From Antennarius striatus (Eukaryota > Chordata > Actinopteri > Lophiiformes > Antennariidae): a stretch of DNA of 64,000 nucleotides. The notes beneath the pieces were generated by a model. It was not told the DNA's origin and made no database searches. It saw only the letters and a list, made by a program, of their open reading frames with translations. A program made the translations under genes and the position numbers. Positions within the stretch are counted from its first letter, which is position 1, and each line of letters begins with the position of its first letter. The stretch is from the NCBI RefSeq assembly GCF_040054535.1, contig NC_090784.1, positions 5,007,501 through 5,071,500 of the forward strand, written 5' to 3'. This document shows, piece by piece, positions 4,874-56,850 of this stretch.

Positions 4874-5890
4874 TTACCCTACAAAGTTAGAATGAGGACA
4901 AAAAGCCAACTTCCTTCTGGCCAAAGGCCAACAGGACCCGTCGACAAGTTCCTCTGACGTCACACACCTCTTTCCAACGCGGACTACAGTAGAACGACTG
5001 TTCAGCCCCACCGCAGCCACCAGGGGGCGCCACGACGGTGGCTCTTGAAAGAGATGCATTCAGGAGAAGACGGAACTTTGAGTGCTTTGGTTTGTTAAGG
5101 CGTTTGAATGCAGATGACGTCAGAGTTTTGGTTCAAAGGTTTGGTCAATCCTGTTAATTATTTAAAATCGTTGTTTGTACACGATAAATAAAAACAGCGA
5201 TCGTGTTTTGCGATCTTTAACAAAACAAACACATATGAAAATACAAATGTTGATTCAAATATTTTTCCTGCTGCATTCAGTTTGACTTCATAAATGGTCT
5301 CAGGGTCCCTGCCTTTTCATTTAAGTAGATTCTGGATAATATACTCTATATTAAATTTATATTTCAGTTTATTATATTTTGTTTTTAATGATGTCGTTTT
5401 TTTACACCCTGTGTTTTTGTTTTTAAAGTTTTCAAATGTACTACACAAACAAAAAAAAACAAACCGCTATGGTGACTCAAGTTTCCCTATGATGTCATTG
5501 CTTCTAGTAGCAGAAGCAGCATTGAAGTAGGTCGACCCTCATGATATGACTGCTTAAAAAAACCCTACATTTGCTATCCTATTTTTATCAGAATTGATTT
5601 GATTTTTATTCAAGGAAAACAATATTTCTTCAAAGGAGAGTGCAGACATCAAGTAGTTTGTGTGTACGCGACAAAGACGATCCTAAAATCCTTTGATAAA
5701 GGATGGATGGATGTACAGACGGACGGATGGATGGACCCTCTCCAGAATGTGACGGTTCTTCTCTGTCCAACTCTCACAAAGTTCAACCAGAATCCATCAA
5801 GTTCGTTTTATTTAACGCTGCTAACAGACAAACCAGCGCTGAGGAAAACACGACCTATTTGGTGGAGGAAACAAAAACATGAACCCGCTA
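4860..5890. other. Intergenic spacer, no gene seen
   Basis: AT-rich spacer between the xylose isomerase promoter side and the presumed rnf144b polyadenylation site. It contains T-rich stretches and a short (GGAT)n run near 5700. No splice-bounded coding segment or RNA gene was recognised. Confidence 0.6.
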
Positions 5891-5904
5891 GCATCTGATG
5901 CATC

Positions 5905-5910
5905 TTTATT
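5905..5910 (-). terminator. Candidate polyadenylation signal of rnf144b
   Basis: AATAAA on the minus strand about 840 bases beyond the rnf144b stop codon at 6748-6750. It is the first canonical hexamer I noticed downstream, so the 3'UTR would be about 0.85 kb. Usage is inferred. Confidence 0.4.
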
Positions 5911-6649
5911 TCAGCTACAATCGTGCTTTTATAAAACATCAGATGCAGAAACATCAACAGAAATATAGACGTAATATCAGAATTTGCACACATTTAACCC
6001 ATAAATACATTTGAACAGACTTTAGAAAAGCACACATCCTCCTTTAGAGCCTTTGGTCTAGAACGAACTGTATGCAGGGTGGAACCAACAAATTTGTGCA
6101 GTAGAAAAGCTTTCTGTGCACCACTGAAGCCCTATCATAACTCATGTTAATACAGATCGGACAGTACATTCAGGACACGGTTTGCCTTCGCCCATAATGA
6201 AGAAATGTTTTGCATTGCTAAGGGATTTACAACCCTGTGTAATCCTGATTTTCATTATGCGAACATTTTTTGCATAAGATAAAAGACAGAATGGAAGGCA
6301 AAGCAAACAGAACCAAGAACCAGGCACTGGAGAGCGAGGCACTTGAGCACCTAACACCTCTGGTTTGGCATCATGACATCTGGCACATGAGGGTGGCATT
6401 GCACTTCGAATTGAAAGTGTGAAAGTGTGTGTGCGTGTGTGTGTGTGTCTGTGTGTGTCCCACAGACGCCGTCCTCCCCCCTCTATCTGTTGTGCATCTG
6501 AAAACATCTACTGAAGGTGACTAACCTGCATTCATTGGCCTCATATTTACAAGTCTGACGTATGAAGTACACACCGTTATTTAAGAGCGGCGTTTGAGCA
6601 GCACTCTCTCAGAGTCACCACTGACCAGTCATGAAAACACACTCCACTG

Positions 6650-6682
<33 letters not shown>

Positions 6683-6747
6683 AGTCCATCATTACACCGT
6701 GCAGCATTTCCTGGCTCTAGTGTGTTTGCTGGACGAATCCCAGGCCG

Positions 6748-9700
6748 TTATGATGAAGAGGAGTCTGGCTGGCCGGGATCCTTCTTCCTCTTCTTCTTCT
6801 CCTTCCTGCTGCAGGGCTTGCAAACACAGCAGAGGATGCACGGCGAGGCCACAAGGAGGAGCGGCGAGGTGACCAGCACTACGATGCTAATCCCCACGAG
6901 GATACCCACCACCTGAAGGACAACACACACACACACACACACACACACGCTCCGTTTACAGCTTCTTTCACTATAAACACAATGACTGCTGCAGTGATTA
7001 TTCAGAAGAGAGCGATCAACAACTCCAACCATGATCGATATTTTCACACCATGATCAAAATTTTACTGAACTTCTTTTTTCTGTTTAAGGATTGAAAATG
7101 TGAATTGTACTCCAATTTGAACTTGTGGCGCATGTGGGTAATGTAGTCTCGATCTAGAACCATTACAATGAGATTCTGACTGGGTCATCAGCTCTTTGTC
7201 ACATATTACACTTCATTTGTCCAAAGAAACATTCTTTCCCATACTCTTTGCTCTGTCATTATTATGTAAAGAGTTTGGACTCATATTTCGGCCCGACCTT
7301 CATCTCAGACATCTCTCTTGATTGTGCTTGACTTGGCCCTTCAGTGTCTGAGCGATCAGTTTGGTCATGTTCAGTACAGGACATTTTATCTGTTTGCGCT
7401 CTAGTGGTATGCTGCTGGATTTTACTAGTCAAGGTGATAGCAGTGTAGAAATCTGTCGTCCTTAGATCATACAGTACCAGACCCACCACCACCTTTGGGT
7501 TTTTTTTACATAACTAAACATTCGACTCAGCAAGAATGACTTCTATACGTTCCTTTTTCATTTGCACACATCCATGAAGCTTCGTGGTCGTGATGTCTTT
7601 ATAAAAAACAAAGACGACACCTCTGAATAAAATAATTGCACAATGTCTCGACATTTATCTACTATAATAATGAGCTTCATGAGAGAATGAAGAAGTGAAA
7701 ACAACAACAACAACAACAATAAACGAACACGTTTTGGGTCAATCTATTTTCTCTAACTCAAACAGGATTTCATTTCATACAGAATTGAGGTTTAAATTTA
7801 AATCTAATGTTCTTATTTTGTTCATTTTTTTTTTTAGCAGTAATGTATTCTGTGTTAGCAGCCGGAGCTTCCCCATTAAGAAGGTAGTCATGTGACCGAG
7901 GCAAGCATCTTGACAAGGGTCAAGAGTGACTCTGAGACAGATGTGGAGGAGAGAATCCAATCATTTAAAAACAAAACTTTGTTCAGAATCAGATCAGAAA
8001 TAATGTTCTGTTAAGTTCTGTTTTCTTTCTCTGCCACCCGGTACACCCATGGACTGATACTGATTGACCCACGGACTGGTACCGGTCCACGACCCGGGGG
8101 GGTTGGAGTCCACTGGATGTAGAGGACGCCCTGAGTTTCAATGTAAGGTAACACCAGCAGCGTTTTGGGGCAGCTGAGAGGGAATTAGAGCAGTAGAAAC
8201 AAACAGATTGCAAAAAGCTACAGGACCTGTTGGGCGAGGGTGGAACCACGTCTGTCATGAGTTGTTTTGCAAGGAACAGAAACACTGAGATGTAATATGT
8301 AGGCTGCCAATGAAACATGATACTTTGCATGTGATTACAGCAGCAGAGCAAGAGGAAATAAAGTAGGCCGAACCGCCGGCTGTGACCGTTCAAAGTACGT
8401 CATTAAAGGGAAGGAATTTGAGATTAGTGCTAGAATTAGTTTGGATTTATCACTGATCACGACTGATTGGACACACTGGTGCACGACAACAATGAGCTAA
8501 CTCATTGGGCATTTTTCAATAAATGGAGCGGCATATGGGCGAATCAAAACTTATGAGTGTTTCTTAAAGTCTGACGGTGAATGAGTTTGTTTTAGATTAG
8601 ATTATCACTAATGTGAGATAAACCAGGTTGATTGATTTTACTGTCCTGCACGTCGACACTCTGGGAACTGAACAGCAGCTTGGAAAGAGTCCAGAATCAT
8701 TAACATCCGATCCTGATGGTGTGACGGCACGGTTTCACTAAAATCAAACCCGTGCATGAAGTAACCTACCGCCGATCGGATGCTTGGCTCCAGCAGGTTA
8801 ATGCTGTCAGACAAAGGCAGCGTCGGCCACAAGCCTCTCATTAATGCTGTGTCTGCTTCCACTGTCTGCTTCATGTCCTCACCTGCGTTCTGTTCCACAT
8901 AACCGAAGCCCGGGAGTGTCCCAGCTTGTTCCTGCAGGGCCCTTTATCGTAATGTCTCAGGAAAATATCCCCCTGCAATTACAAAACATGTCCGAACACA
9001 ACATCAGCCGGCGCAGAGGAGCAGAGGCTGCCATTTGAACCTGGTTAGAGATTATCAACACAATCTAAACAGAAGATTAGGAGTACAGTTCCTTTAGTAA
9101 CACGCATTGGGTTTCACAGTTATTAAAAATGTCTTGTAGACTCACATCCAGATTCTGCAGACAATACCAGCAGAAAGTATGTTTGCAGCTTTTACACAGC
9201 ATCTGTGCACAGCCCTGGTTTCTCTCGATGTAGACGCCACACATGGGACACTGCTTGATGGGCGGGTCGGCGTCGCTGTCGGAGCGCGCTCTGTGTGTGC
9301 GGAGAGGACAGGACGGTTAACAGGGGTGGCATTGGATGGAGCCATTCAGGCTTCAAAGTTCTCCAAGCAGAGTGTTCAATCTTTATTTAGCTTTTTATTT
9401 TATCCTGGGATGAGGAGCTCACATTCGGGATCACCATAGAGAGGAGTTTTGACACAGTCTCTTGCCTAATAGCTGGAAATGGAACCTCCTGCTGAGTGGA
9501 GGGCGTACCGCTGAACCACAGACTGTAATCCAACACTTATAGAGTTGTGTTGACTTACTGTTTAGCGAATAAATCTTTATTTCCCCAGCCGGCAGACAGA
9601 CCACATCATTACTTATTAGAATGATTGTTTCCCGACGCCTGTCAAATGAAAGATTAATATTTACTCCTCATTTAGAACTCGTGCGGTCTCCATCACCTGA

Positions 9701-12184
9701 GGGAAACATCTCAGCTGACACGACTAGTTGCTGACAGATTGTGCTCATGGGATTGATCACGACATTGCACCGCGTGCAAACCGGCTCGTTCCCACCCCCT
9801 TCACTTTGGCCCAGAGACAATAGAATTCCAATACAAGTCAGCAGGTGTCCAATGACATCAGTCCGTCTGACAGAGACGCACCCTGAGGCTGCACAACAAT
9901 GAACACAGAGCAGCCCGTCCCACCGTTGTGTACAGGCGAAAGGCAGGGAACACCTCGGACGAGATGCCGGTTCATCGCAGGGCCACATGAAGGACAAACA
10001 CATACACTCACGCCTAGGTGCGATCACTTCACCTACGCCTCATGTTTTTTGGAGGTGGGAGGAAGCCGGAGAACCCAGAGAGAACCCTGTATGTGACTCT
10101 ACATTTTTTCATGCCACTATGAAAACACAATTTCCCGTTCTAGACCTGACCACTGACCTCCCGTCGTGGGAGGGTGACATCATGGGCTGCTGCTCGGGGC
10201 AGGTGTGACTGTCCTGCCACGGCCCTCTGCACCCCGAGCAGAAGACGGCGTTACAGGCGGGGCAGGGAACAGCGGTGGGTTGGCCCTCGGTGCTCGGCTG
10301 CAGGCTGCACACCGCCTGGCACCGCAGCACCGGACACCAGGCTTTACTGGGATCCAGCTTCACTCCTGCAGGAACAAGAGAAGGGATGTGAGTTGTTGAG
10401 GCGCTCATTGAGTAGATGTGAGGGTCCACTTTCTCATATAGTTTCATATAATTACACCTGATACAGACATGAGTTCATTCAAGTTCATTTGTTTGTTGTT
10501 TGGTTTATCAGGATCATTTTCTTGATTTTTTTGGGGGGGCAGTAATACAAGAAAATTTTACTTTCTAACACTTTGAGGGTGTTACAAACCCAAAAGTCTT
10601 AAAAATAAAGTCTCAGGTGTATGAAACCCATCATTTTTGGGCTGTGAGTTGAAGTCACTGTATCCAAACACTCCTAATGACAATGGTAATGAACTTGTGT
10701 GTATCAGGTGATTAACATAAGCTCCATTTTAATTTAGCATGCTAACTGTTGCACAGCAGCATTTAACAGGAAGTACCTGAGTCTGAGGGGAATGTCAATA
10801 GTTATGTAATCATGAAATATTTAACGTGTTTGACCTGTTCTAGAAATGCATACTCCGCTCAGGTGTGCAGCTTGTGAAATTATTTTAAGACTCCAAACAT
10901 GGTTATGTTATCGGTATTAGATACTAGAACGTATTTCACCTCACCCCTTAAAAAAAAATATTTGAGTCCACACTGAACTGCTGGACGGAATGACCCTTGC
11001 AGTCCCACGACTAAAACATGTAACCACTGTGTGGTGGGATCACGTTATCTCTGTTACCGTTATCTACGGAGCACATTCCAGGCAGTTTATGAGGACGACT
11101 GAACAAAAATTCAATTTCAAAAAAAAAAAAAAAAAAAAAAAAAAAAGCCTCTATTTCACAACAAAACTTGCTCTTTACTTTGTGAATCAGAACAAGAAAA
11201 TCAGAACAGAATCAGAGACCTTTACAGAACAACCTGCACTTTGCCCTCTATACTTCCAGTATAATGAGTGTCGTAATTTACGGTGACAGTAAACAATAAC
11301 TATTGGCTTCAAACTGAACTGCAGAAGTAAAAAAGAAGAAAAAAAATAAAAACATGAGTACCAGGTAAATAAATCTGAGATTATCTATTAATGTCATTCT
11401 GTTTAATTTCGTCATAATAGCCTCGTGGCTCAAGCAGCTACACACACAGGAAGTTACCCGCACGTAAAGATTCTTTATTTATGATCTGAGTAGAAATCTA
11501 GAAGTCTCCTGAAGCATCCTGGAATTCAATGCGGTACTGCTTGGTTTAAGTGAAAGTCCTAAACCCTGAAGGAGGGAATAAAGGGCACCAGGCCCCATGT
11601 TATCCCAGGCATGTGGAGCCCAGGCCTCCCCAGGGCTGCTTAGGTTAATGCCTCCAACTGCAGTGTGACCTGAAATAGCCTGCTGCCGGCCACCAGTCAG
11701 CACCATGCCCACACAACAATACCTACCTCTCTCAAACTTCAGGCGTTGGTACAGCTCCGCCTGGTCCTCTGCAGCCAAGATCGCTATCTGTGATCCCACA
11801 GAGAGACAGGGGGTTAAGATCACTGTTACATCTCTTTAAATATTAAAATCATTAAAAATCAGTTTCTTGGAAGTAAGAATAAAAGTGGTGAAACAGAAAT
11901 CAGTCGATTTATCCTGAAGCTTTGCTTTTGTGCTGCTGTTTTAACTTCTGACATAAAGCAAAGGATTGCAAACACTGCAGACGTTTGCTTTAAAATAAAT
12001 GTACGTGGAACAGCTGCCTGGTTATTGACAGACATTCTAAACTCAAATCTAATTCAAATGAGCTCAGAGGATCTTCCTGAAGAGTCTTCATGTAGGTTTG
12101 TTCAAAGAAGAAAAGTGTGACTAATGAGGAGCCGAGGAAGACGGTTTGTCCGTGTTGTGTTCACTGTGTGCAAAGCAGCAAGCC

Positions 12185-12235
<51 letters not shown>

Positions 12236-13063
12236 CCTGACAGCTGGATGAACGTGATTCTCACATCACTCCATGAGAGTTAATCTAGTTCACACGTCTC
12301 AACGAGCACACAAATGATTTGAGGTTTGACTTCGGTGCCGTGGGCGGTAAACAAACAGGCGTGGTCACCCCCTCTGACATTTAAGGAAGGATTAGAAAAT
12401 GTGTTCATGTTTGTGTCGCTGGTTTTCAACAGGGTGTACCTCAGAGTCCAGCAGCTCTCCAGTCTTCTGACAGGCCATATCTGGGCAGGTGATGGGTGCC
12501 CCCCCACCCTCCACGATGGCCAGCTGAACATACTGCTGCAGGCACTGCAGACAGGGAGAAGCAACACATGAAGCATGAGAAATTCTCTTGATAAAACATC
12601 ATGGAGTAACCTGACTGTCAGCCACGGGTGAAAACCAACGCAAATAAACAACTCCTGACAAACAAAAGAGAGAAAGAAACCCCAATGGACCTGTCACCAG
12701 AGACAACTAACCACCACAAAAACACCAGTTCCGATTATTAATGCATCATCCGGGGCCACGAAACACAGAAGTGTAAAAGAATTACGTAAAGGTTCCACAA
12801 AAACACACAGTTTCTAGGAACAGAACCGGCTATTTTCAGTGAATGATGAAAAGAATGAATTCCTCATAGAAGTCTGACACATGTTTCTCAGCTCGTCTCG
12901 GGCCGACCTGCTCTCGTTGTGTCTTCAACACAAAGTGTGACGTACCGGTCGCCCACAAACTGATCTGGAACAAGAAAAGTGCACGGGCCGTGCTCTCGGG
13001 CCGGAGCGGAGACCTTCCAGCTTCATAAAATGTCCAACTGATAAGCAGCATTTATTGAATTCA

Positions 13064-13106
<43 letters not shown>

Positions 13107-13667
13107 GCGTGTGACCTCATGCGTGCAACATTGACGTCTTTGCTTGCCCGGACGGATATTAACACTTGCCACAATCGGAGCAACCGCTGAGGAGGGCCCT
13201 GACACACATCGGAGGGTTGATTCCCTCCAGACACACGTGATCCCTGTCGGCTCAGGTTCTCCTGCCTTTTAAAAACACCCCCCCTCTGTATTCTAGCAGT
13301 CACACTCTGATTTAAGGAGCGAAATCAACTTTCATTAATGCAACAATTTTTTCTAAGGAAGATGAAAGTCAATGTGTTGAAACGGCTTCATTTCACTAAA
13401 GCTGTAACATCGGAGGATCTATTTTTAAGATGTGAAAACAGGAAGTTCTACTGCAACAACGAGGACTATCCATGTCTAAAAACTGGCTGCTGGACATTTA
13501 GCTAAATTGCCCAGAGAAAAGTTTTCTGGTGGATCATCCCAGTGAAACCCTCCCCGCCTACAGAGGTTGGCTAACAGCTCGAGCAACATGATCAGAGGAT
13601 GATCACACTGTGTTTTCACTAAAAATAGCCTGTTGGTGCACGACTGCTGCTGCTGAAGCTCCAGAAT

Positions 13668-13729
<62 letters not shown>

Positions 13730-13939
13730 TCTGTGTGTGGTGTAAACGTCGTCTTCTCCTACCGGCGTGCAGAAGACGCAGCTGCAGCGCTGCAGCTCCA
13801 CGGCGGCGGCGAGCGGATGCTCGCTGAGGCACAGCTTGCAGAAGATATCTGGCTTTGGGCGAGGGTCCACTCCAGTCTCTGGGGTCCCCGGCGCCGAGGC
13901 CCCACATTCTTTGCTCAGGGTGGGAGTCCTGCTGGTCAT
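6748..13939 (-). CDS. rnf144b: RNF144B-like RBR E3 ubiquitin ligase
   Basis: Membrane-anchored RING-IBR-RING E3 that passes ubiquitin through a RING2 cysteine. Coding exons (minus): 13763-13939, 12440-12544, 11727-11787, 10158-10365, 9146-9290, 8883-8972 and 6748-6912. They total 951 bases, or 316 residues, against 303 in human. RING1 begins CKLCLSEHP and continues with CSCVFC and CPDMAC. The IBR carries [23 protein letters not shown] and a W..H.C end. RING2 has [17 protein letters not shown], including the expected catalytic Cys in GCAQM, then CKHTFCWYC. The last exon encodes one C-terminal transmembrane segment ([20 protein letters not shown]) and a Lys-rich cytosolic tail. Residues such as LYQRLKFER and the lysine tail favour RNF144B over RNF144A. 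The first coding exon has an acceptor after 14038, so a 5'UTR intron is likely. A candidate AATAAA lies at 5905-5910 on the minus strand. Confidence 0.93.
6913..8882. other. rnf144b last intron, repeats only
   Basis: Holds a (CA)n tract near 6926-6948, an (AAC)n tract near 7700 and, at about 8040-8110, a GGTACCGGTCC...CCCGGGGGGGTTGGAGTCC segment. That segment resembles a widespread vertebrate hAT-type transposon end. No coding exon is supported. Confidence 0.5.
9898..10096 (-). repeat. tRNA-derived SINE, diverged partial copy
   Basis: Minus-strand copy of the SINE that is better preserved at 43375-43705. The shared part covers the conserved TTCTCTC(C/T)GGGTTCTCCGGCTTCCTCCCACC block and the downstream segment. 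It lies in an rnf144b intron. The head with the A and B boxes is missing. Confidence 0.7.
11118..11147. repeat. Poly(A) tract
   Basis: An uninterrupted run of roughly 29 A residues inside the rnf144b intron between 10366 and 11726. It could be an old retroposon tail, but the sequence before it was not recognised. Confidence 0.7.
12189..12232. repeat. (CA)n microsatellite
   Basis: About 22 uninterrupted CA units within an rnf144b intron. Confidence 0.9.
13066..13112. repeat. (GT)n microsatellite
   Basis: GT tract with a few GC interruptions in the first coding intron of rnf144b. Confidence 0.85.
13669..13730. repeat. (GT)n microsatellite next to rnf144b donor
   Basis: About 30 GT units that, on the gene strand, are CA repeats starting some 30 bases after the donor of the first coding exon. 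CA-rich tracts this close to a donor can act as splicing enhancers in vertebrates; any effect here is inference. Confidence 0.9.
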
Positions 13940-16400
13940 GATGGAGCTGCGGATGTAGGGAGGTGAGGATGGAGGGATCAGGCGGCTCCTCGCCCTCCTG
14001 CTGGGCCCTCACAGGAGCTGCAGTCTCCCCTCATGTCCCTGAAAGCAGAGACGGCTTTAGGTGGCCTCTCCGGTTGGTTGAAGACTCTTCTTCTTCTTTG
14101 GTAGAGTTCACACACCTACAGCCAGACATTCTGACCACACTGCCACCTGTTTCTACACCAACTGAGACGACTTGACTCCTCCAAGAGATACTGGTCACTG
14201 TCCAGTTAGCTGGGAGACGAATAAATCACCGTTTAAACCTGAGTGGTCCAATAGTTAGAGCGATTACAGCTAAGTGCTCCCATATTACCCATCTATCACC
14301 TGGTCTGTTATTCAGATATGGCTTTTAAGTTGTTTTAAGGTCAAAGTACAAGGTGTGTGTTTACAGAGGTAGGAACAACCGAGCAGCCCCACATTCATTC
14401 TGATGGGAAGACGTCACCACCTGTACAGGTGTGTGCAAGCCAGGTAGCGTGTACAACACCGCTCAGCTGTTTAGTCAAGTAAACACAGAGGTATATTTCT
14501 ATAAATAGTCAATTAGAATACTGTATCAATGTAAGAATGATCAAATGAATGGAATAAAGTCTGAGACACAACCTCAGGGTCTGTGGTGTTCCACTGATTC
14601 TGTCCACTGGTTCCCAGGGGACACCAGTAGCCCCAGGGCCACCAGGGAACCTCTACAGACCCCGTTTGGAGGGGCATCCATTAAAAATGTATTTTATAGA
14701 TGTAATTCAAATGTATCTCAGAAAACTTTACCAAAACTTTAAATCTGACACCTTTAGTCGGTTACATATTCTGGGACGGAAGTAGGTGGATAATAAAAGT
14801 CTGAAATCATCCTGTCCAGTTACAGGAAGTGTAACAAACAATCCCATAATCTTGGATTTACATTAATCCTTTAGATAACAGTAGTTAGTCCCACAAATGG
14901 GTCACACAGGAAATGTCGGCGTTAAACACATTCCACGGTTAAAGTTGTCAGGCAACTCTGCCTCAGCTCAGTCAGTGAAGGCACCATCAACACCTACTAG
15001 AACATACAAACACGTCCAGGGGCGTTCTTCTATTATACCCCATCGATCAGTGGTGGCATGTGGGGCAGCCTGCCCCCGGGATTTCTGCCCCGTCATGGTG
15101 TCTCCTCCTGCACTGCTTTCAGACAGGCCGTTTGAGCCAGCTGCAGTCATCATCCTACAGCGCTGTAAGCCTGCCCTGGTCCTGTGTATGCATCCACATG
15201 GGAAATAACAGGTCTCTTATCAGCTGGGGGGGGGGGGGGGGGGCAGCATGGAAACTAACATTAAAAACAGCTTGACCCCTTCCCTAGACATCAAAGCCTG
15301 GACCCATCTGACGTTCCCTGGGGTCGGTCGGTCAGTAGATGGGACCGCTTTTCCTTTATCATAAATCAGCGTTGTGTCACATGATCAGATTTGAGGCAGT
15401 TTGATTTTTAATGAACTGCATAATTCATGAGCGCATGCTGTCTAATTCTCATGAAAAACAGAGACTAAACCATTGTTTGGATGCTGTTAAATAGCATTTT
15501 GCATCAAACAAACAATCCATGACACAAAAACTATTACTAGAACGAGACGTCCCCATCAGTATCAGCCTTCAAAAACCAGGTTTTGACTGCAGTCCCTGTC
15601 CCAGAGTGACAGGGTCACCCATCTGCATTTGTTTTAGTCGTAGATTAAAGCATCATCCCTGACCAGAGAGGAGGAACCTCAGAACCGAATCTGCCTCCAC
15701 ACAGACTGCCACTGTGTGGGGGGGGGCAGACAGCTGGGGTTGTGTGCTCAGGGGGAGTGGGGCAGGATTTCTATGACATCAGTCAAACCTCTGCAATCAC
15801 TGCCTCTCTGTCCTTGCTGGACTCCCAAACCCAATAACCTGCATGTCTCTGATGGACAGCCAGGAAAGTTGGAAATGAGGGAGGAAGGAAATGATGTGCT
15901 GTAAACACCTGATCCAGGTAAAAATGTTTCAGGTGTGAGCAGAACTGACTTTAAGGTGTTTCCAACAAGATGATGAAATAAAGTATTCTCTATTATAAGG
16001 AACCAAACCAACACATCTGCGTCAGCCTCAAGGTTGCATCCACAAAACTGCAGTTGTGACGCATTGACGTCCAGAATTCCTGACCTGTGTGGTGAACGGA
16101 TGGGATGGAGGAGAGGGGCGCACCTCGGCTGTGGAGCCGCCGTGCGTTCACATCCACGGCCGCAGTGCTCCGATCACACGTCGCTACAGTCGGTTGTGTT
16201 CTTCTCGCCTGTCCCACCAGCCGAAGAGCCTCACAGACAAACTGAAGCCATACCCGGCGTCCCGTCCGCTCCGGCCCCGTCCCGTGTGAGCCTGACGGCT
16301 CGTCTCCCACGCTCCGTGTCGGTCCAGGAAGCGGCGCCTCCTCTGCGCTCCGCTCCTCGCTGCTCCTGCCTGGTGGTCATGCTGCGTTCAGGGCGGTCGG
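13940..16400 (-). promoter_or_regulatory. rnf144b 5'UTR, first intron and GC-rich presumed promoter
   Basis: The start codon exon continues upstream to an acceptor after 14038. The next GC/CpG-rich block in the upstream direction is about 16080-16430, where a good donor on the minus strand (CACACAG|gtcagg) sits near 16087. I infer a non-coding first exon and promoter there. The stretch 14040-16080 holds a long G run near 15225-15243 and nothing I recognise as coding. Confidence 0.4.
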
Positions 16401-16639: not shown

Positions 16640-18306
16640 TCTTCTTTTCCTTTCGGCTTTTCCCTTCAGGGGTCGCCACAGCGAATCAATTGCCTCCATC
16701 TAGCCCTGTCCTTTGCATCCTCTTCTCTCACACCAACTACCTTCATGTCCTCTTTCACTACATCCATAAACCTCCTCTTTGGTCTTCCTCTAGGTCTCCT
16801 GCCTGGCAGTTCAAAACTCAGCATCCTTCTACCAATATATTCACTATCTCTCCTCTGGACATGTCCAAACCATCTCAGTCTGGCCTCTCTGACTTTATCT
16901 CCAAAACCTCTAACATGTGCTGTCCCTCTGATGTACTCATTCCTGATCCTGTCCTTCCTGGTCACTCCCAGAGAGAACCTCAGCATCTTCATCTCTGCTA
17001 CCTCCTGCTCTGTCTCCTGTCTTTTCCTCAGTCACACTGTCTCTAGACCAAACAACATCGCTGCTCTCACCACAGTTTTACACGCCTCTCCTTTCATTCC
17101 AGCTGAAACTCTTCTGTCACACATCACACCTGACACTTTTCTCCACCCGTTCCATCCTGCCTGGACACGCTTCTTCACCTCTTTTCCACACTCTCCATTG
17201 CTCTGGATTGTTGACCCTAAGTACTTAAAATCCTCCACCTTCTTGATCTCTTCTCCCTGTAACCTCACTCTTCCACTTGGGTCCCTCTCATTCACACACA
17301 TGTACTCTGTCTTACTGCGGCTAACCTTCATTCATCTCCTTTCCAGGACAAACCTCCACCTCTCTAGCTTCTCCTCCACCTGTTCCCTGCTTTCACTGCA
17401 GATCACAATGTCATCTGCAAACATCATAGTCCATGGAGATTCCTGTCTAACCTCGTCTGTCAGCCTGTCCATCACCATAGCAACAAGAAGGGGCTCAGAA
17501 CTGATCCCTGATGCAGTCCCACCTCCACCTTGAACTCCTCTGTCACACCTACAGCACACCTCACCACTGTCTTACAGTCCTCATACATGTCCTGCACTTC
17601 TCTAACATACTTCTCTGCCACTCCAGACTCCCTCATACAATACCACAGTTCCTCTCTGGGCACCCTGTCATAAGCTTTCTCCAGATCTACAAAAACACAA
17701 TGCAGCTCCCTCTGGCCTTCTCTGTACTTCTCTATCAACATCCTCAAAGCAAATACTGCATCTGTAGTACTCTTTTTTGGCATGAAACCATACTGCTGCT
17801 CACAAATGTTCACTTCTGCCCTTAGTCTAACTTCCACTACTCTTTCCCATAACTTCATTGTATGGCTCATCAGCTTTATTCCTCTGTAGTTGCTACAACT
17901 CTGCACATCTCCCTTGTTCTTAAAAATGGGCACCAGCACACTTCTCCTCCATTCCTCAGGCATCTTCTCACTATCTAAGATCCTGTTGAACAACCCAGTC
18001 AGAAACTCTACTGCCACCTCTCCTAGACCCTTCCATACCTCTACAGGTATATCATCAGGACCGACTGCCTTTCCACTCTTCATCCTCTTCAATGCCCTCC
18101 TCACTTCATCCTGACTAATCTTTGCTACTTCCTGGTCCACAACAGTCACCTCTTCTAATCTTTGTTCTCTCTCATTTTCCACTTCAAAGTACTCTTTCCA
18201 TCTTCCCATCACACTACTGGCACCTGTCAATAGACTTCCGTCCCTATCCTTAATCACCCTAACCTGCTGCACGTCCTTCCCATCTCTGTCTCTCTGTCTT
18301 GCCAAC
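16640..18306 (-). mobile_element. RTE-type LINE, 5'-truncated and inactivated
   Basis: Reverse-transcriptase ORF read on the minus strand. It contains the [11 protein letters not shown] block, [28 protein letters not shown] and FADDIVICSES (the catalytic FADD). The C-terminal part includes EYIRGTAHV, RWFGHVQRR and GRPKRRFMDVVKEDM. The endonuclease is absent, so the copy is 5'-truncated. It is broken by a one-base deletion near 17490, after LSPFLL, and by in-frame stops at about 17334 and 17034. The 3' end has an AAG/AT-rich tail near 16580-16650. RTE clade (Expander-like) is judged from the motif order. Confidence 0.88.
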
Positions 18307-19954
18307 CTATTTTACAATATACAGTATTATGACTCTTTGACTAACAATGGCATTTATTGCTGAATCGTCTCACACATATGACGGATCTGAAGTGTATTCA
18401 TCCTTTAAGCTATTCTAACCCAACCATACCTTATTCAAGTTTGATTACTCAGCTACATTTTTTCCCCCCATTACAACGTATTTTTGTAGCAAATACAATA
18501 TTTATCAACTGCTGTTAAGATCCAAACCAAACAAGAATAGTTAAAATACAGTGGTTTAAACTTTCAAGTGTTTTTTTTGTTCCAAATGTAAGACTAAATG
18601 CTGCTTTTACTGATGACAGGAGCCTAAATGATTCAAACATCTCTAATACCCTGAAGATAAAACCCACTGCAAACATGATGCGAAGCAGGACAACAGCTTC
18701 TAAGGAATATTAGTCTGTTATTAATGAGAAAACACCTCCAGTTCTGGAATAGTCCTCATGCTTTGGGGAATTTATTGGAATGTTCCTTTTCAGCATCAAC
18801 TTCCTTCTTTCTCATCCTGACATATCATTGGATGCAAAAGGTACGGTTTAGTTTCATCTCTTCACAGGAGAGCATTCTAGTGCTTCTACTTATCTAGGAG
18901 CTTCTGAGCATCTGGGCCTGGCTTCTCCTGTAGGTCAGTAGTGGTGAACATCTGGAGTTCAAACATTGAGTCCTGGTGTAAACTCAGATCTTAACAGAAA
19001 GAAGTGTTTCTGAAAACATGTGTCATTTCATTTCATCTTGGCTAAATCTGGAGATCAATTGTCAATCAAGAGACCTTAGATACATGGCAATCAATATAAC
19101 AGCCAATAAAAATGAATGAATGATTCAAAAACCAATCAAAATGCTAACAGATGTAGAATGCAATCAATCAGACACACGACAGAAGATGTTTCTGTCGCCT
19201 AATCCAACTACTGTTTGAATCACAGAATTGTTAGATTTGTAAACAGGCTTATGCACAAACATGCAAATTCCAATCGCCACTGGACCTCATCTGATCACTC
19301 CCAAAAGGTGACATACATGTTGACAGTTGTACGATGAAGACCACCCTTCAGAATTCCTTAGATATTTACTAGAGTTTTTCTAAACTCCAGCAGGAGGGGA
19401 CCGTATTCTTCCTGAGGATCTCAGACAGAGTTGCCCACCAACTGATTTTATGGGAGCCCCCACACTGGATGGCAAACCCCACTAGACACCTTGATGAAGG
19501 ATTCGGGGGGCGGTCAACTCTGCCGAACTTACCGCCTGCCAAACTGAGAAGTCTGGACTTCAAGACTCACAGCTCAGCTGAGGCCACGAGTAGTAAGTAG
19601 TGGTAGGTCTACAACCGTCTGAGGACCTTACCGAGATGCACGTCCATCCAAGAGAGAACGCTGGGAACAGCTGATGCTTGACATTTATAGTTCTTAGGGA
19701 GTTAACCTTTCCCAAAGAAGTTGTCTCTCTCTGCTACCAACATTAGGTAAATAATGAGACCTTGGCATACCAACGTTATCTCCTCTCAGCATTAGTGTTT
19801 TCCCTTTTTTCTTTTTCCGGATGCTGTTGTTGATGTTGTACATGTGACGAAGGTGTGAAAGTCTGTTATATTAACACGTCCGAAAAAATTTTTTTTAATA
19901 AATAAATAAGTAAATCATCAATTTAGAGTGGCCAAAAGACAAAAAGTAAAGAAA
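18307..19954. other. Intergenic, nothing recognised
   Basis: Moderately AT-rich sequence with no splice-bounded ORF I can defend. The segment 19300-19640 has higher complexity and GC than its surroundings but translates with stops in all frames examined. It may be an old, unclassified repeat. Confidence 0.5.
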
Positions 19955-20035: not shown

Positions 20036-21436
20036 TACAGCACCATCATATTTCTTTTAAACAGGGTTAGGGTTAAGACTCTCCTGAACCCGCTGCCCTG
20101 TGGCCATCAAGAAATGCCTTCACCAGGAGACAGAGACGACCAGATTAAAAAACAAACTATCTGAAAACAAGGTGATACCGTATACCGAGGAGGATCAGGA
20201 AAATGGTGGAATGTTGGACTGTCACAATCTATTTCTCAGAGAAGATGGGCCTCAGAAATGCTGTACTCAGCTTCATTACGGGTGTAGTTAACAAATCTCG
20301 CTGATTATATTAGATATAATTTATCCAATCAACATTTTCATTAAACGATGCGTGTCAGTGGGAGTGTTGTTATAGACCTCCATAGAGACAATGTCCAATA
20401 AATCAGGAAAGTCCATGGCACATGACCTTGGATAGAGGAAGTGAAGAAAGTGTGTTCTTTGTGCTGACACACAACAAAATCGGTGTTTAGTGTTGATGTT
20501 TTTATCTGGTTCAGTGTGTATCAGGTCCATCTGAGTCACATTGGATGGTCACCACTCAGAATTAACATTAATTCACAGTGAATTAAATATTATTTTATTG
20601 CGTTCAGATGTCCCGTCATATCCAGACAGTTATCTTTATGATCGGCACCGGTTCACGTCCCGATCGATCACACACATCCACAACCTAATCCCTCCCCATA
20701 CTTGCAGCATAACAAATCACAGTCAAGTCTCACATCCCAGCAGGTATTGTGTGTATTAGTGCTTTTTTTTTTTCTTTGCAAACGTAGTTTTCCATACAAC
20801 GTGGGAGACGCTCAGTGTTCCTTACCATAAAACGGCTTTTACTCTAGTTTGTCAGTTTCCCTGTAGATAAACCTGTCAGAACCATCAAGGAGGAGCTCCA
20901 CAGGATTACAGGTGAATGACGTAGAAATCTGATAAATTAATTTGAAATTATATTCTGTTAATGATATTGTGCTGCAGACTTGCATTAGTGACTTTAATTT
21001 CTTTTATGATTTCCCAATATATTTTTGAGTCTTTGAGGGCTTTTATCTGGAGGACAGGCGTTACCTATGGCAACAGATGCATCTCAATGCATTTCATCTA
21101 CAGGCAAAAATAGATGATGGGACTCTCCTCTCATGTTAGTCAGTGGATGTTGGCAACAGATTTGCTGATGTGTGCACTTCTTATTACATGAAGCATTTTG
21201 TGCTGCATGCAGGAATAAAAAACCTGTTGAGTTGTTATTCAAAGTACTCTTGCGTTATTTGTTTTTTTACTGCTTATAAATAGTATATTTGACCAATAAA
21301 TGGATTATACTCCAGGTCCAAGGCAACTGTCAGGCCCTTTAAAACATTAAAACATGACTTTATTTTGAACTTTAATCGCATGTTTGAATAATTTTGCTTC
21401 CATCCGTGTATTGCAAGTGTAATTGCAACTAGACAA
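20036..21436. other. Intergenic, nothing recognised
   Basis: No gene supported. A 45-base exon-like segment at about 20866-20910 has AG/GT borders and an open frame, but no partner exon was found. Confidence 0.45.
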
Positions 21437-21569
21437 AGTTTCCCGCTATAAAAATTCGAGGCGCATGATGTGTCTTTAAACCGTGTTGATCTGCAGTTTC
21501 GGAGTAAAGGAAGGAAAACACATCCTTCTGGTTTTTTATGTCATTTCAACGTAACCGGATGGAAACTCC
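21437..21569 (+). promoter_or_regulatory. Promoter of RHIM-like gene: TATA box and candidate immune sites
   Basis: A good TATA box (TATAAAAA) lies at 21447-21454, about 220 bases before the chosen start codon. Directly upstream is AGTTTCCC (21437-21444), an interferon-response half-site type. Downstream is TGGAAACTCC (21560-21569), close to the NF-kB consensus. The TATA box is clear; the two factor sites are short matches and only suggestive. Confidence 0.5.
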
Positions 21570-21674
21570 GCGGTAAAGTGCGCTTGCGCCCAGCGGAGGG
21601 GATTTCGGCCAGAAATGCTGCGCCTTTTATCAGTCCGTGTTCGAAACCCTTTATTCAGAGAGAACCAGTGAACG

Positions 21675-22190
21675 ATGGATGAAATATCGGTTTGGAGCCC
21701 GGTTGGTAACAATTCAAATGAAGCCAAAGCCAGATCCATGCACGACCAGGTGGGTTGTTTTAAATCTTATTTTTTATTATTTACTTCTTATTGTAAACCT
21801 TTTCTTCCTGGACGCGTCAGAGCCTCTCCTGTCAGGTGTTGTAGGGAGTTCACACCTGTCTGCTCACACCTGTCTGTTCACACCTGACTGCTCACACCTG
21901 TCTGTTCACACCTGTCTGTTCACACCTGTCTGTTCACACCTGTCTGTTCACACCTGTCTGTTCACACCTGTCTGTTCACACCTGTCTGTTTAGATAGAAG
22001 ACGGAACAGAGCGTGGAACAACTCACATTCTAACACCAGTCTGGATTTGTGTTACAAACTTCCATCTCCAGATACATAATTTCTGAGTAGTTGTAATTTT
22101 TTTCTGATCAAACAAACAAACAAACAAACAAAACTAACTCCGAAACACAAAGAAGAGAAACTTACTTTATTAATTACTTTATTATTTTCT

Positions 22191-22265
<75 letters not shown>

Positions 22266-23635
22266 GATGTAAGCATACAAATTAGAGTGATGGTCGAGTG
22301 AAGCCAAGCAGCGCCCAAACAAGCAGCTCCTGGTTTGGTGCCTTGCTCAAGGGCAGCTCAGCTTTGCACAGGAGGTGAACTGACACCTCTCCAGCTACCA
22401 GTCCACACTCCATACTTTCTGGTCCACGCTGGTCTTGACCCAGCCCCCCACCCAAACGGGAGCGACAGACTGAGCGGTGCACGTCTTCCTGCAGGTGGTC
22501 TCACACAAACCCTCCAGCATGGACCGACTCCTCCAGGTGATGCAGGCAGCGGCGCGGAGGAGCTGCTGTCAGCTGCTCTGCTGCCTCCCCATCCCCCTGC
22601 TCTCCGAAAAGCTCACCTGGCACCCAGGTAAACTTCATTTCTGTAATACTATCTGAACTATTTCATATGTTAGCGTCACCTTGCTTTGTCACTGCGCTGG
22701 CCAAAAAGTCAACATCCAGCTTCAACTCTCTCACTGTCCTTACAGCTCCAAATCATCAGTCAGCCAAGGACGAACCTTCACGAGGTAAACTCAAGTTTGG
22801 CTTTGACATCACGGCCTGCATGTTTAACCCTTTCTTTGTCTTAACAAATGGGAAATGTCTTTTTCTCTTTCCTGTTTATCACGTTTTCATTATCGGTAGA
22901 TTCTTTAGCAGTCTGGACGACCAAATTAATGAGACATGCTGCAGATTTCTGTGTCATGCTTTACTTAAATAAGGACGGCTTCAATGAAAAGGCGTCAAAG
23001 TGCTGAGTCAGTTCATACAAGAGAGGGTTCTCTTATTATTCTGCAATTGCAGCAGCAGGTCATCTTTACCATTGCGTCAGTCTGTAACAACTTCCTAATA
23101 TCTCGTTGCCTTCCCTTTTCCCCTCTCTCCCTTGTCGACTCACTAACAGTAGTGCTCCAGGGGCCACCATCCACCATTTTCATTGTGAACATCAGCAACT
23201 CTACCTTGGTCAACTGTGTGATCGGGAAAGATAACTACCCATCTACGGTGGAGGAAAGGCACCCTTTCCTGCAGGAACATCATCATCATCCTCAAATTCC
23301 CAGTAGGTCACAACAAAGACAGAAAATCGGAAACACTGCCTCCAGATTTTATTTTTCATTCCTGATCTGGACAAACTGCAGTGCTCCAACTAATGAGCAA
23401 CATTCTGTTGGTGTTCACAGGTCACTTGAGGTGCAGCTGCAGATGCGGACAGCAGGGGGCAGCACAGACCACTCCCCATCCTCTGCCACCAGCAGAGACT
23501 CAGAGCGTCACCATCCACAGCTCCCACGTCAGCTGCGTCATCATCGGAGACAACAACTGCATGCACGCCAAGCAGACCCACTACACCCAAGCAGATGAGG
23601 CAGAAGAGTGCGAAGCTTCGGCCTCACAAGGCTGA
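21675..23635 (+). CDS. Small protein with two RHIM-like motifs
   Basis: Five exons join in frame: 21675-21749, 22495-22627, 22746-22784, 23150-23302 and 23421-23635. They give 204 residues. Every border has AG/GT ends, and 21675 is the ATG that stays open to the first donor. The gene family is not recognised by name. Exon 4 encodes STIFIVNISNSTLVNCVIG followed by KDN (residues 90-111). Exon 5 encodes SVTIHSSHVSCVIIGDNNCM (162-181). Both match the RHIM pattern [IVC]-x-[IV]-G-x-x-N preceded by a beta strand, as in RIPK1, RIPK3, ZBP1 and TRIF, where the motif builds signalling amyloids. The usual Q of the core is V or I here. No kinase, Z-alpha, TIR or death domain is visible. The middle is Cys-rich (CSCRCG) and the C terminus is acidic. 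Role as an adaptor or inhibitor of RHIM signalling is inference. AATAAA is at 24327-24332. Confidence 0.6.
21851..21990 (+). repeat. 14-bp minisatellite
   Basis: Roughly ten near-identical copies of a 14-base unit (TGTTCACACCTGTC), with two early variants, in intron 1 of the RHIM-like gene. It has no spacers, so it is not a CRISPR. Confidence 0.9.
22194..22263. repeat. (CA)n microsatellite
   Basis: About 35 uninterrupted CA units in intron 1 of the RHIM-like gene. Confidence 0.95.
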
Positions 23636-24326
23636 CACACTGCTGTTTGGAAATGGTTTCAATATGACTTCATCAAACTTTTGTGATGCTGGGTCACGAT
23701 TTAAAACCAAACCACAGCTCGTCTGGGATCTCCAAGTGTAAATAGGAATATGTCACAATGTCAGTTCCTCTGCTTCCTGTTTTGCAACCCTGGGCCCCCG
23801 GCTGATGAGAAGACAGGAAGCTGACAGCCCTTTCATTTTCCTTGTGGATGGAACTTTGTAATGACTCACGTCACCATTCGTCTCTGGTATCCAGTACGAG
23901 GATGTGCTCAGTGTTGTTGACTATACGTTATGTGAAACACTGTGCTCATCGACACTAATCCCTATCATATCCTGATACATGTATGGCCTATGGTCATTAG
24001 CAGTATACGACATAGTCGTGCTCATCTCTGATTCATCAAACGGATTCCTTGAATTTGTTGGTCTGGTGTTACTGGATCTCACTAAATGAGTTTCACCTTT
24101 GAAAGAGGACTTTGAATCAAGGTACTCTGTGCTATCTGATGACATAGTGCTGTTTCATGACGCCTTCACACAGGGTAGTGTGTATAGTATTATAACTGAT
24201 TAGTATTTAATATTGTTCTTTACTGAGTGTTAACAATTGTTTGCGGGTTTTTTTTTTAACTATTTCAAACAAAGAACAAAGAATATTCAGCGTCTTTAAT
24301 CAGGAATTGTATTATTCTTTATTGTA

Positions 24327-24332
24327 AATAAA
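24327..24332 (+). terminator. Candidate polyadenylation signal of RHIM-like gene
   Basis: AATAAA about 690 bases after the stop codon at 23633-23635; it sits in a TTTATTGTAAATAAATAA context. Usage is inferred. Confidence 0.4.
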
Positions 24333-25440
24333 TAATTTCGATTGAGAAAATGATTTCTTCTACTTCCTGTCCTCCGTCTGAATCTTTTGCTTTTAAAGCA
24401 CACAGGCCTCAGAGCAGCATGCAGCCTCTCCACCAGAGACAGTGTAACAAGGCTATGGTCACCTGGGCCGTCTCTGTAAGGTCAAAGGTCACATTCAGGT
24501 GTAGGAATCCATACAGTAATAAAAGAGACGTCATAATGCATATTAGCTATGATGACATGACGGGAACACGATCAGATGTCGAATTTAACGACAGCATGAA
24601 AAACAACTACTTACAGCAGGTACAGCTTTGATCGCCACGATAGTTCAGAATTTTTTTTCTCGTATTTTCTCACAATATATATTTTCTGCTTTTTTGTAAA
24701 TGGAATTTTTGCGTTTAATGTTGTAGTAAACCACAAGTTTAAAAGTTTGGCTCTGTGGATTTAATTTTGAATGTGGATCGACATAAGATAATTTTATTTA
24801 GAATCAAACCAGGGCTTCATTCAGTGTCATCTGAGGTGAGACTGACAGTGACGATGGCGTGATCGGTGACGGCGGTAGAATTTAACCTCCGCTGCTGGTA
24901 GACAGTAATGAGCATTCCATCCTCTCACTGGAGGAGGAGGGGGGGGGCTTTCATTAAGTGAGATTAAATCACACATCTAAAGCTGAGGCAGCACATCCCC
25001 AGAGGTAAAAGCCACCCCCACTTTAAAAATAGACAAGTACATTTCAGAGAAGATTTGCTCTTTTCGTTGGTGGTGGCTTGACAACCTGTTTTAATGTTGC
25101 AGCAGCATGACTGGGATGTCACAGCATGTGGGAACAAGACGACGTGTTAGGTGATGCTTTTGGACGTTGCCCTTTTCTCGATTCCACACCCACCTCCCCT
25201 TCACCAGTTCACGACATGTTCTGAAGCAGTGCTGCTTTGCACCCGTCGGGGCCGATCACGGGTGAGGATGGCTTGAATGTGGCCCCGTGTGATCCCCAGA
25301 GACAGCTGAGAGTGATGCGGACAGCATCTCGCTGAGGGTAGAAACGGGATGACGAGTCTAAAGCACAAACAACGAAACCTTCTCATCCTATTCTGCCAGT
25401 GCTGCCGAGCAGGAGGAGCTCCCACGGCAAGAAAAGACAA
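24333..25440. other. Spacer between two convergent genes
   Basis: Lies between the presumed 3' ends of the RHIM-like gene (+) and usp45 (-). No supported gene was found. Confidence 0.5.
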
Positions 25441-51400: not shown

Positions 51401-54400
51401 ATCTTCCACCTTGTTCTTCTCTATGACTCCCTCATTATCCAGAAGTTCTGATTCATGGTGCATGGTGGATAATGAAGATGCTTCTCTCAGTCCCTGATAG
51501 AACCTTGGATGAGGTGTCGACATCCACAGAATGGAGACAGCTGGTTGAGGCTGCTTTTACAATCCCCTCTGTGGTTTCCGGCGGTGCATTTGTGTTTGAC
51601 AGGTGAATCTGAATGAGGGCTGAGAAACCAACTGATGACCGTAGAGATCTGTACTTCCCTTTATTATACTGAGATGTCTGCATCCCCATTGACGTGCTAT
51701 AGTACTCAAAAGAAGTGCAGGGAAAGGCGATCTTCTTGGTGTTGAAGTATCACTATGGATTGCTTGTACTTATGACTCGGACCAAGCCAAAATCCACCTA
51801 CAATGTAGAGTCTAACTTTTATCTGCCGGTAAATCACTACCGTACGTCCAAACTATGCAACAACCTGGAGACACTTTTCAGATAAGTGTTTCCTTTTGCT
51901 CTGGTTTGCTTTTACATTCCATTATAGAAGCCTAAATAACAGACTGTCTGTTGTTTATTAGAAATCTCTCACAGTAGTCCACTTGATATGTGCTGGCTAG
52001 CAAAGCATGCTGATAAAAAAAAACTGTATTAACAATAACGAACAGTTGCTGGCTTAGGCCCCGTCCACACGATGCCGGAACTTTTTGAAAACGCAACTTT
52101 TTTGTTGGGTTTACGCCTTCCGTCCACACGACAACGCAGATATCCGGAACGAAAATGCAACTTTTTGAAAACGCTGGCCTAGGTGGACTTTTTAAAAAAC
52201 GCTGGATCTGCGTTGTTGTGTGGACGGTGTATCCGCAACTTTTTAAAAACGCTGACGTCTTGCCTGCAACGAAAACCTCTGTGACGTCATATTTATGGGC
52301 CCGTGTGTTGTGACAACAAAACACGGAGGATTCCTATTGGATAAAATTTGACTCAATACTGCCTCCACATGGTTTGGCATGCTTATAGCCATCTTCGAAA
52401 ACGCACTGCTGCGTTTACGTGTGGACGGAGATTTTTTTGAAAACGCTGTCATGTGGACGCGAATCGTTTTTGATACGTTTTTAAAAAGTTGCGCTTTCAA
52501 AAAAATCCGTCATCATGTGGATGGGGCCTTATACTTGAAGTTACTGATGCAACACATTTCTAATTTTTGTTGAGAATGCAACAAAATGCAACCTATGTGA
52601 GTAGGAAAACGAATTCATCTGTATGACTGCAACTCTGTGCAAGAGAAACTAGGAACTAGTAACGCTCTGGTGTCATTGTGCAGATAGATTCTGGTAGATA
52701 AGAACACGCAGATACTAAGAACAAGGAAGGACAATGAACCAAACTTAGTTTGAGGGTCACCAGTGCAGATCATTGCAAATAAATATGTTTCATTTATATC
52801 TTATTGTCAGTGTAAGTCTTCCGTGTTCAAGGTCAATCACTTCATGTTGAATTGAAGAGATGGTCGCTAATTAAATGCTTGTATAAATCTTTAACTAATC
52901 TGACTTCAGCCTTGCTGATACAGCTGTGCAAATATGTCTAACAAAAGCTTTTTTCAGCATCATCCAGGGGGCCAGATATCCAGGAGCCAAACACCTTACC
53001 CGATATTGCCTTGACTGAGTGCTTTTGTAAAAAGTCCAGGGTCTGGGCCAAAGCTTTCTTGTTGCAGTGCGTGGAGAGCTCCTCATTACATTCAAAACAC
53101 CTGTTACAATGAAAGGAGCCACAGACACAGAAAGACTAAGTTGCTGTGGAAACACAAACATTATAATGCTGCCAGAAAGCACTTCAAAATACCATTCCAT
53201 TGGTAAAAACACAGTATTCATACTTTTATATTATGTTGAACAAATTCTAAGTTTGGAAAGTGAAACGGACTTTTAAACAATCCACACTGAGCATGCTTGG
53301 AAACACCAGTGCCTGTTTATCTGGGTTAGAGTCAGAGTTCTATGCAAATCCCCAAATTGCTGACATCCTGCTGTCACCTCAAAACGATGCACATGAGCAA
53401 TATACATAATCTTGGCTTTATTCCCATGCAGGTTATGTTAGTCAGAGTTTTCTCACCAGGCTTTCCATGTGCTCAAACTGATGGTGATACAGTGAGATTC
53501 TGGATGGAAAGCTTGGTGGTGCTTCATGGCATGCTGGATTCCTGACTGCATACAGCCCTGTAAGACAGTTCAATAAAGAAAGATGAATTGAGTAAAAATA
53601 CTAGCAGGCTTACAGCACATATTCCATACAGTTGTCTTATTTTTTTTTAGCATTTTGAATGTACATATATACTATAAATGTGAAAAAGTGTTGGATCCAG
53701 GTTTCTTCAAATTTAACAAGTTAAATATGAATACAACCTTTTTATAATGACATTTGGTAACTGGTAATAAAAACAGTATGAAAGGATCAGCAGCACCTAG
53801 ACACTTCTATCATGGATAACACAAACCACAACACTGAACCACGTTCTGTGCAGAATGTGTTTCAGTGCTGTCTGTCTGTAATAAGCAAGGACTACACTTG
53901 GCTGCATATGTACCTCACCACCTTCTATCAATCAGAATCAAAAGTGCCCTCACTACTGTACAGGTCACCAATGCCATGTGCACTAATGCCCCCACCACCA
54001 CCACCACCACTACCACCACCATGGATGTTAACATTTGAACTGTGGGCTGCGAACAAGCCGATGGTCCTCTACTTTTTAGCCTGGAGGACATGGTACCCAG
54101 GATTTCATTAAAAAAATTCAAATGACTGTGATACCACGGGACAATTTTCCAACTCAGTCCATTTTCAATAAGCTTATAAGTAGCTTTAGTCAAGACAATG
54201 GATTTGGTTTAAAAATGTTTCGCTTTATTTGTGAGGCAGCAATGAACTATGTTCACAGAAATTGGCTTTAGGAAGTGTTCCTGAGCCCAAGCAGTGAATG
54301 AGGTACAGAACATAAAGATCACAGGCATCTGATATTGGTTCTCAGCCTCTTATGAACTGAGATTTTTCAGATTTTTTCAGATTGTCTGATTCTTTTACTG

Positions 54401-56639: not shown

Positions 56640-56850
56640 ATTTATTGTGAATTTCCCAGTTTGGGATCAGTAAAGTATATCTTATCTGATTATAGACAGA
56701 ATTCAACGACCTCTACAGAACATGTTTTAACAACAGTAAAATCCACACAATGCAGTATTTGACATACAATGAACCTACGATATACTCAGGAGTTAAACTG
56801 GGGATTTCCCAGTGTGGGATCGATCAATCAATCAATCAATCAATCACTTT
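56640..56850 (+). repeat. Two LINE-type tails with ATCA microsatellite
   Basis: GAATTTCCCAGTTTGGGATCAGTAAAG at about 56648 and GGATTTCCCAGTGTGGGATCG at about 56800 each form a short hairpin. They are followed by a microsatellite, (ATCA)n in the second case. The same pattern occurs at about 4457. This is the 3' tail layout of fish LINE/SINE elements. Confidence 0.55.

Follow-up and report, generated by a model that had tools for sequence, protein, structure and literature searches.

The window analysed here (the whole stretch of 64,000 nucleotides, on contig C9 of a 548-Mb fish genome that was itself searched) holds a small five-exon gene whose last exon encodes what its sequence marks as a credible RHIM relative. 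We suggest that this single-copy gene yields a small, probably disordered protein without kinase, TIR, death or Z-alpha domains, whose RHIM-like motif, of RIPK3 type, would come from the last exon, with a weaker copy perhaps in the preceding one. An earlier note on this DNA had proposed five exons in one frame encoding 204 residues, and this was borne out: the plus-strand chain closes to 204 codons (615 nt), and each intron runs from a GT donor to an AG acceptor.

21675..21749, plus strand: exon 1 (residues 1-25), its ATG preceded by A at -3 and followed by G at +4
22495..22627, plus strand: exon 2, found de novo; LLR 9.2 in frame
22746..22784, plus strand: exon 3, 39 nt, phase 1-1; found de novo
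23150..23302, plus strand: exon 4, 153 nt, phase 1-1; contains motif 1; open in this frame only
23421..23635, plus strand: exon 5, terminal, with stop; contains motif 2; found de novo; LLR 12.8

The RHIM resemblance is carried by motif 2, in exon 5.

23507..23563, plus strand: motif 2, RIPK3-type RHIM-like core; residues 163-181, VTIHSSHVSCVIIGDNNCM

Its core, VSCVIIG, begins at residue 170. Aligned without gaps, motif 2 shares 10 of 23 residues with the RHIM of this fish's own RIPK3, the runner-up among the 42,683 open 23-mers of the window sharing 7. Against a 23-mer profile built from fish RIPK3, fish RIPK1 and human RIPK3, motif 2 scored 30.3 and the next 23-mer, the two fish profile members aside, 15.7 (150,725 open 23-mers from the window and fetched loci, some overlapping). 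When motif 2 was slid over the same DNA, fish RIPK3 was its best other match (39; next 32). Exons were compared with RHIMs in tests in which both sides were shuffled 20,000 times: the score of exon 5 against human RIPK3 (50) was reached by no shuffle, that against fish RIPK3 (44) by 72, and the weak score against fish RIPK1 (28) by 1,174. Exon 5 did not match human RIPK1 (18, reached by 7,779 shuffles), and the control exons 1-3 matched none of the four RHIMs (4,955 to 14,413 of 20,000 shuffles as good). A six-sequence HMM, which includes fish RIPK1 and fish RIPK3, ranked the exon-5 frame first of 2,141 frames of the window (E 0.012, 12.2 bits; top of 20 shuffled sets, 10.8 bits) and gave the spliced protein 10.5 bits, a score equalled by 2 shuffled frames in the 20 sets. 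With a four-sequence HMM, motif 2 obtained 6.1 bits, equalled by about 1.5 shuffled frames per set and so without significance. The residues GDNNCM satisfy the pattern G-x-x-N-x-(M/L/I) given for the positions that follow the tetrad (PMC9440496, in excerpt). Together, these comparisons argue that the resemblance of motif 2 is real, and sequence kinship to known RHIMs beyond chance was found for motif 2 alone, though not in a blind whole-genome scan.

Membership of the RHIM class is another matter. The tetrad is defined as (V/I)-Q-(V/I/L/C)-G (PMC9444067, in excerpt), and neither CVIG of motif 1 nor VIIG of motif 2 contains the Q; mainly because of this missing glutamine, we do not file the protein as a RHIM protein. 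The description 'RHIMs of this shape' in the earlier note is therefore too strong, although a RHIM-like motif does stand in exon 5. Fish RIPK3 variants (VQFG, LQIG, VQSG and CQIG) retain the glutamine, and the fish tetrad is described as far less conserved (PMC12119088, in excerpt); flounder RIPK3 functions with VQSG, and its conversion to AAAA lowers necroptosis (PMC10825024, in excerpt). An HMM search against the Pfam RHIM family, put forward earlier as a check, stayed below the curated cut-off of 20 bits for PF12721. The best score was 11.7 bits, on a hand-trimmed 21-residue peptide of motif 2, with 10.3 on 37 residues and nothing on 20 or 51; motif 1 gave nothing on 22, 23, 25 or 42 residues, the whole protein gave no match, and the two motif peptides joined gave 7.3 bits. 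As controls, human RIPK3 scored 40.6, human RIPK1 23.5, human TRIF 41.1 and fish RIPK1 29.8 bits. The same model misses the RHIM of this fish's RIPK3 (nothing on 20 or 67 residues), so little can be read from its failure to detect a divergent fish RHIM. Over the whole 548 Mb, PF12721 returned seven places with E up to 10, the candidate not among them, and a genome search in which the RHIM of fish RIPK3 was the sole query missed both the candidate and RIPK1. Scanned blind, a genome of this size would not single out either motif.

Beyond the RHIM question, the protein reaches no Pfam cut-off, and Pfam finds no kinase, TIR, death or Z-alpha domain in it. Its sole match, Squalene epoxidase, scores 15.7 bits against a cut-off of 20.1, by which we rejected an origin in another folded family; the confident match to an unrelated family that the earlier note said would overturn its reading was not found. 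In a PDB sequence search with the whole protein, human RIPK3 came first, weakly (E 0.27) and helped by a His-tag match, while, searched alone, motif 2 had no match at E up to 10 and motif 1 returned just an unrelated protein. A single-sequence AlphaFold model of the exon-5 frame is of low confidence (mean pLDDT 42.1) and mostly disordered, with two short strands flanking the G-x-x-N turn, which decides nothing on amyloid assembly. The phrase 'little else than two RHIMs' is thus fair in form, given that no Pfam cut-off is reached and the exon-5 frame is predicted to be mostly disordered.

The foremost alternative is that the gene is real and that VIIG and CVIG are ordinary beta-prone sequence without RHIM function, whether by chance likeness or as a decayed RHIM that does not assemble. 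The lack of Q in both tetrads and the Pfam score below cut-off fit this explanation, as does the absence of the candidate from the genome-wide list: six PF12721 places besides RIPK1, lying in 31-54-residue frames unlinked to a known RHIM gene, score 16-19 bits, so that single matches are cheap in 548 Mb. Motif 2, however, lies in a single gene of several exons and was tested against RHIMs of its own genome; it scored about twice as high as the best other 23-mer and had RIPK3 as its best partner. We consider absence of RHIM function possible, though clearly on the doubtful side of even. At C10:4110856-4110906, near LINE-like frames, a 31-codon frame contains a canonical VQIG core (19.2 bits, or 20.4 with its neighbours); the frames listed for ~10 kb on either side hold no kinase motif, and this RHIM-like core is perhaps due to chance.

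The second motif claimed in this gene lies in exon 4.

23170..23235, plus strand: motif 1, weak RHIM resemblance; residues 90-111, core CVIG-KDN

The core VNCVIG begins at residue 103. Motif 1 resembles human RIPK3 at p 0.046, human RIPK1 at p 0.015 and mouse RIPK1 at p 0.10, and the scores of exon 4 were equalled by 515 (human RIPK3) and 467 (human RIPK1) of 20,000 shuffles; against fish RIPK3 and fish RIPK1 they were equalled by 9,649 and 8,942. In the profile it scores 5.0, a value in the top 0.11% of null positions (29 registers were tried), and its GKDNYP departs from G-x-x-N-x-(M/L/I) at the final residue. Of the two RHIM-like motifs claimed, the one in exon 5 stands, on its 10 of 23 residues and its profile score, and the one in exon 4 is marginal; sequence suggests at most that motif 1 is a RHIM relative. 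The earlier note had read an internal duplication from the likeness of the two motifs; exon 4 compared with exon 5 gave p=0.0067. Because both motif 1 and exon 4 are weak, the tandem is suggestive and unproven.

Possible partners of such a protein are present in this genome. Fish RIPK1 is represented by kinase, RHIM and death-domain frames, a RIPK3-like gene on C23 (C23:2919500-2929400) consists of kinase frames and a RHIM, VHIHLSNVTGFQHGNNNTMHIYA, shortly before the stop, and MLKL is found at 157.3 bits (PF22215). RIPK1 and the RIPK3-like gene lie on contigs other than that of the candidate. The RIPK3-like RHIM (positions 7792-7860 of its locus) has the unusual tetrad FQHG and goes undetected by the Pfam RHIM model. 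A kinase gene on C4 (C4:12594500-12602500) was rejected as RIPK3 because, by eye, its kinase frames are followed by a CARD-like frame; it is probably RIPK2B, a paralogue that therian mammals reportedly lost. Z-alpha occurs at two places genome-wide, both in one 563-aa frame elsewhere, which we take to be ADAR1-like. No ZBP1 was found genome-wide, Z-alpha being confined to that frame, and we rejected the candidate as a ZBP1 orthologue, its protein having no Z-alpha. The literature describes ZBP1 as absent in fish (PMC12119088, in excerpt) and actinopterygian TRIF as having no RHIM (PMC9440496, in excerpt). RIPK1, RIPK3 and MLKL are thus present while the ZBP1 and TRIF-RHIM inputs of mammals appear to be missing, a setting in which the protein could instead be a positive RHIM adaptor that nucleates RIPK3 in place of mammalian ZBP1 and TRIF. 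Two RHIMs are possible, as in ZBP1; Pfam, however, finds no sensor or receptor-binding domain, the cores are Q-less and motif 1 is weak, and we hold a nucleating role to be quite unlikely.

The gene is flanked on one side by a reverse-transcriptase frame (17472-18308, minus strand) and on the other by a minus-strand gene at ~29.4-57 kb that we take to be usp45 (UCH match by Pfam; outer exons judged by eye); a rhodanese-domain gene at 58 kb (Pfam) is presumably tstd3-like. The DNA from 22450 to 24350 was found once in the whole genome. A paralogue search to E 10 gave nine protein matches: four are the gene's own exons, and the other five have E 0.36 or worse. By these searches the gene is apparently single-copy, and a transposon or repeat origin was rejected, no second copy of this DNA or of the protein having been found in the genome. 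No relative was confirmed in virus, bacteria and archaea contigs among 6 + 119 pattern matches, which says little about fish. Intron 1 contains, by eye, a minisatellite of the CACCTGTCTGTT type and an AC microsatellite (21835-22264).

By computation, the gene structure holds up. A gene finder that uses codons and splice signals, trained on 3,700 codons from 10 long open frames of this genome, recovered exons 2, 3 and 5 de novo with identical boundaries, together with the 3′ end alone of exon 1 (from an ATG at 21738), at 33.2 bits; the full five-exon chain of the earlier note scored 29.8 bits in the same finder. No dinucleotide shuffle out of 400 (top 13.3) and no tile out of 58 from the usp45 span (top 19.7) reached 29.8 bits; about half of each set gave no three-exon chain. 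Among 2.9-kb tiles on both strands, higher scores came solely from usp45 (91.9) and a RING/IBR gene (38.3). Among 4,425 open AG..GT segments scored by human codon usage, exon 2 ranks at the 93rd percentile, exon 4 at the 70th and exon 5 at the 90th. Exon 2, in which another open frame scores 9.7 (LLR) against 9.2 for that of the gene, encodes a cysteine-rich stretch, RRSCCQLLCCLPIPLL, possibly a membrane anchor. Exon 4 is the weak link of the model: its donor and acceptor are both weak (1.2 bits each, the donor under the finder's threshold of 2), and its coding score is near zero (0.9), with stops in both other frames. Being phase-symmetric, it leaves the frame closed whether included or not, and may be a cassette or no real exon.

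Signals around the coding exons are as follows.

21251..21800, no strand: CpG-rich promoter region, where observed/expected peaks at 1.17 against a median of 0.42 for the window
21447..21452, plus strand: TATAAA; ~1 per kb expected
24327..24332, plus strand: first AATAAA/ATTAAA 3′ of the stop, candidate poly(A) signal

The CpG peak at 21.25-21.8 kb resembles that of the usp45/tstd3 promoter, with CpG equally high at 52 kb and at 24.5-24.9 kb, both without a known promoter. The top CpG observed/expected of the window (1.45) lies at 51951-52600, inside the usp45 span, where a minus-strand frame (51932-52330) has no Pfam match; this peak may be a promoter internal to the span, or else a young insertion. 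The TATA box claimed earlier is there, at 21447, a sequence expected about once per kb. Seven patterns were tried in the 1 kb upstream of the ATG. One strict kB site lies at 21119 (0.09 per kb expected) and one GGGRATTT half-site at 21598 (0.08 expected), ~150 bases downstream of the TATA box; neither kind reaches a rate of one per 10 kb over the window, and the pair are two matches among seven patterns. The IRF-like sites of the earlier note did not hold: GAAANNGAAA is absent from this 1 kb and one loose IRF-like site occurs against 1.39 expected, by which an IRF promoter was rejected. Strict kB matches are not enriched in the window as a whole (6 against 4.66 expected), and three of the six form one palindromic cluster at 56.8 kb near usp45. 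That cluster includes a palindromic kB site, GGGGATTTCCC, at 56800-56810, near the shared usp45/tstd3 promoter region. On the two kB-like sites, an NF-kB promoter is at most possible.

That there is no protein-coding gene and the exons are a construction of the reader is highly improbable: exon 4 is poor in coding and splice signal, the second frame of exon 2 scores equally well and codon scores of single exons are not extreme, but exons 2, 3 and 5 were recovered de novo, 0 of 400 shuffles did as well and the promoter is CpG-rich.

For this gene, which we infer to be expressed, we propose that the protein would join RIPK3/RIPK1 RHIM assemblies by heterotypic beta-stacking and would poison or cap the fibrils more likely than start them, a brake comparable to fly Pirk/Rudra. 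That it is a RHIM-based partner of some kind, counting modifier or brake together with nucleating adaptor, seems to us slightly more probable than its opposite; that it is specifically a RHIM-only modifier or brake of RIPK3/RIPK1 assemblies is a tentative proposal, somewhat short of even. A brake is favoured because there is no kinase and a hydrophobic residue replaces the tetrad glutamine, and a modifier that would join fibrils without propagating them was thought of mainly for that missing glutamine. The inhibitory direction, more likely by analogy than a trigger, is the weakest step; binding to RIPK3/RIPK1 and amyloid formation, like the direction of the effect, are presumed. A broader claim would be that fish own a RHIM protein of a fifth vertebrate kind, free of enzyme domains and with two RHIMs whose tetrads lack Q, which as adaptor or decoy controls RIPK1/RIPK3/MLKL signalling without ZBP1 or a TRIF RHIM; this we consider unlikely.

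If expressed, the gene would count as a new regulator of cell death or inflammation in fish. With ZBP1 reported absent from fish, and the TRIF RHIM from ray-finned fish, it bears on how fish RIPK3 is fed or held back; a host protein consisting of RHIMs only would be the natural counterpart to viral RHIM decoys and to fly Pirk, and the candidate would test if a Q-less tetrad can still enter RHIM fibrils. The open-licence papers listed by our literature searches include none about a fish protein of this sort.

Humans are described as having four RHIM proteins (PMC12119088, in excerpt). Unlike TRIF (TICAM1), the candidate has no TIR domain. With ZBP1 it shares the lack of an enzyme domain and possibly tandem RHIMs, but it has no Z-alpha. 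In Drosophila, the small protein Rudra/Pirk (clone to residue 197) is a negative regulator: induced upon immune challenge and requiring Relish, it binds RHIM-like receptors and blocks their signalling (PMC2483946, in excerpt). The candidate agrees with a decoy of this type in small size and in the absence of other domains only, the two kB-like sites being no test of induction; pathway and phylum are different. Compared with RIPK1, the candidate has neither kinase nor death domain, and motif 1 has no score against the fish RIPK1 RHIM, yet the fish RIPK1 RHIM exon (150 nt, phase 1-1) is matched by exon 4 (153 nt, phase 1-1). Exon 5 enters in phase 1, whereas the fish RIPK3 RHIM exon enters in phase 0 or 2 with weak acceptors; because exon 4 agrees with the RIPK1 RHIM exon and the RIPK3 RHIM exon does not agree, intron phase was given little weight. 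RIPK3 further differs in its kinase and in its tetrad, FQHG in this fish and VQVG in human, against VIIG in the candidate. In both proteins, however, the motif lies close before the stop, with 10 of 23 residues shared ungapped between the candidate and fish RIPK3, and motif 2 also has the proline-bearing lead-in and the GDNN of human RIPK3.
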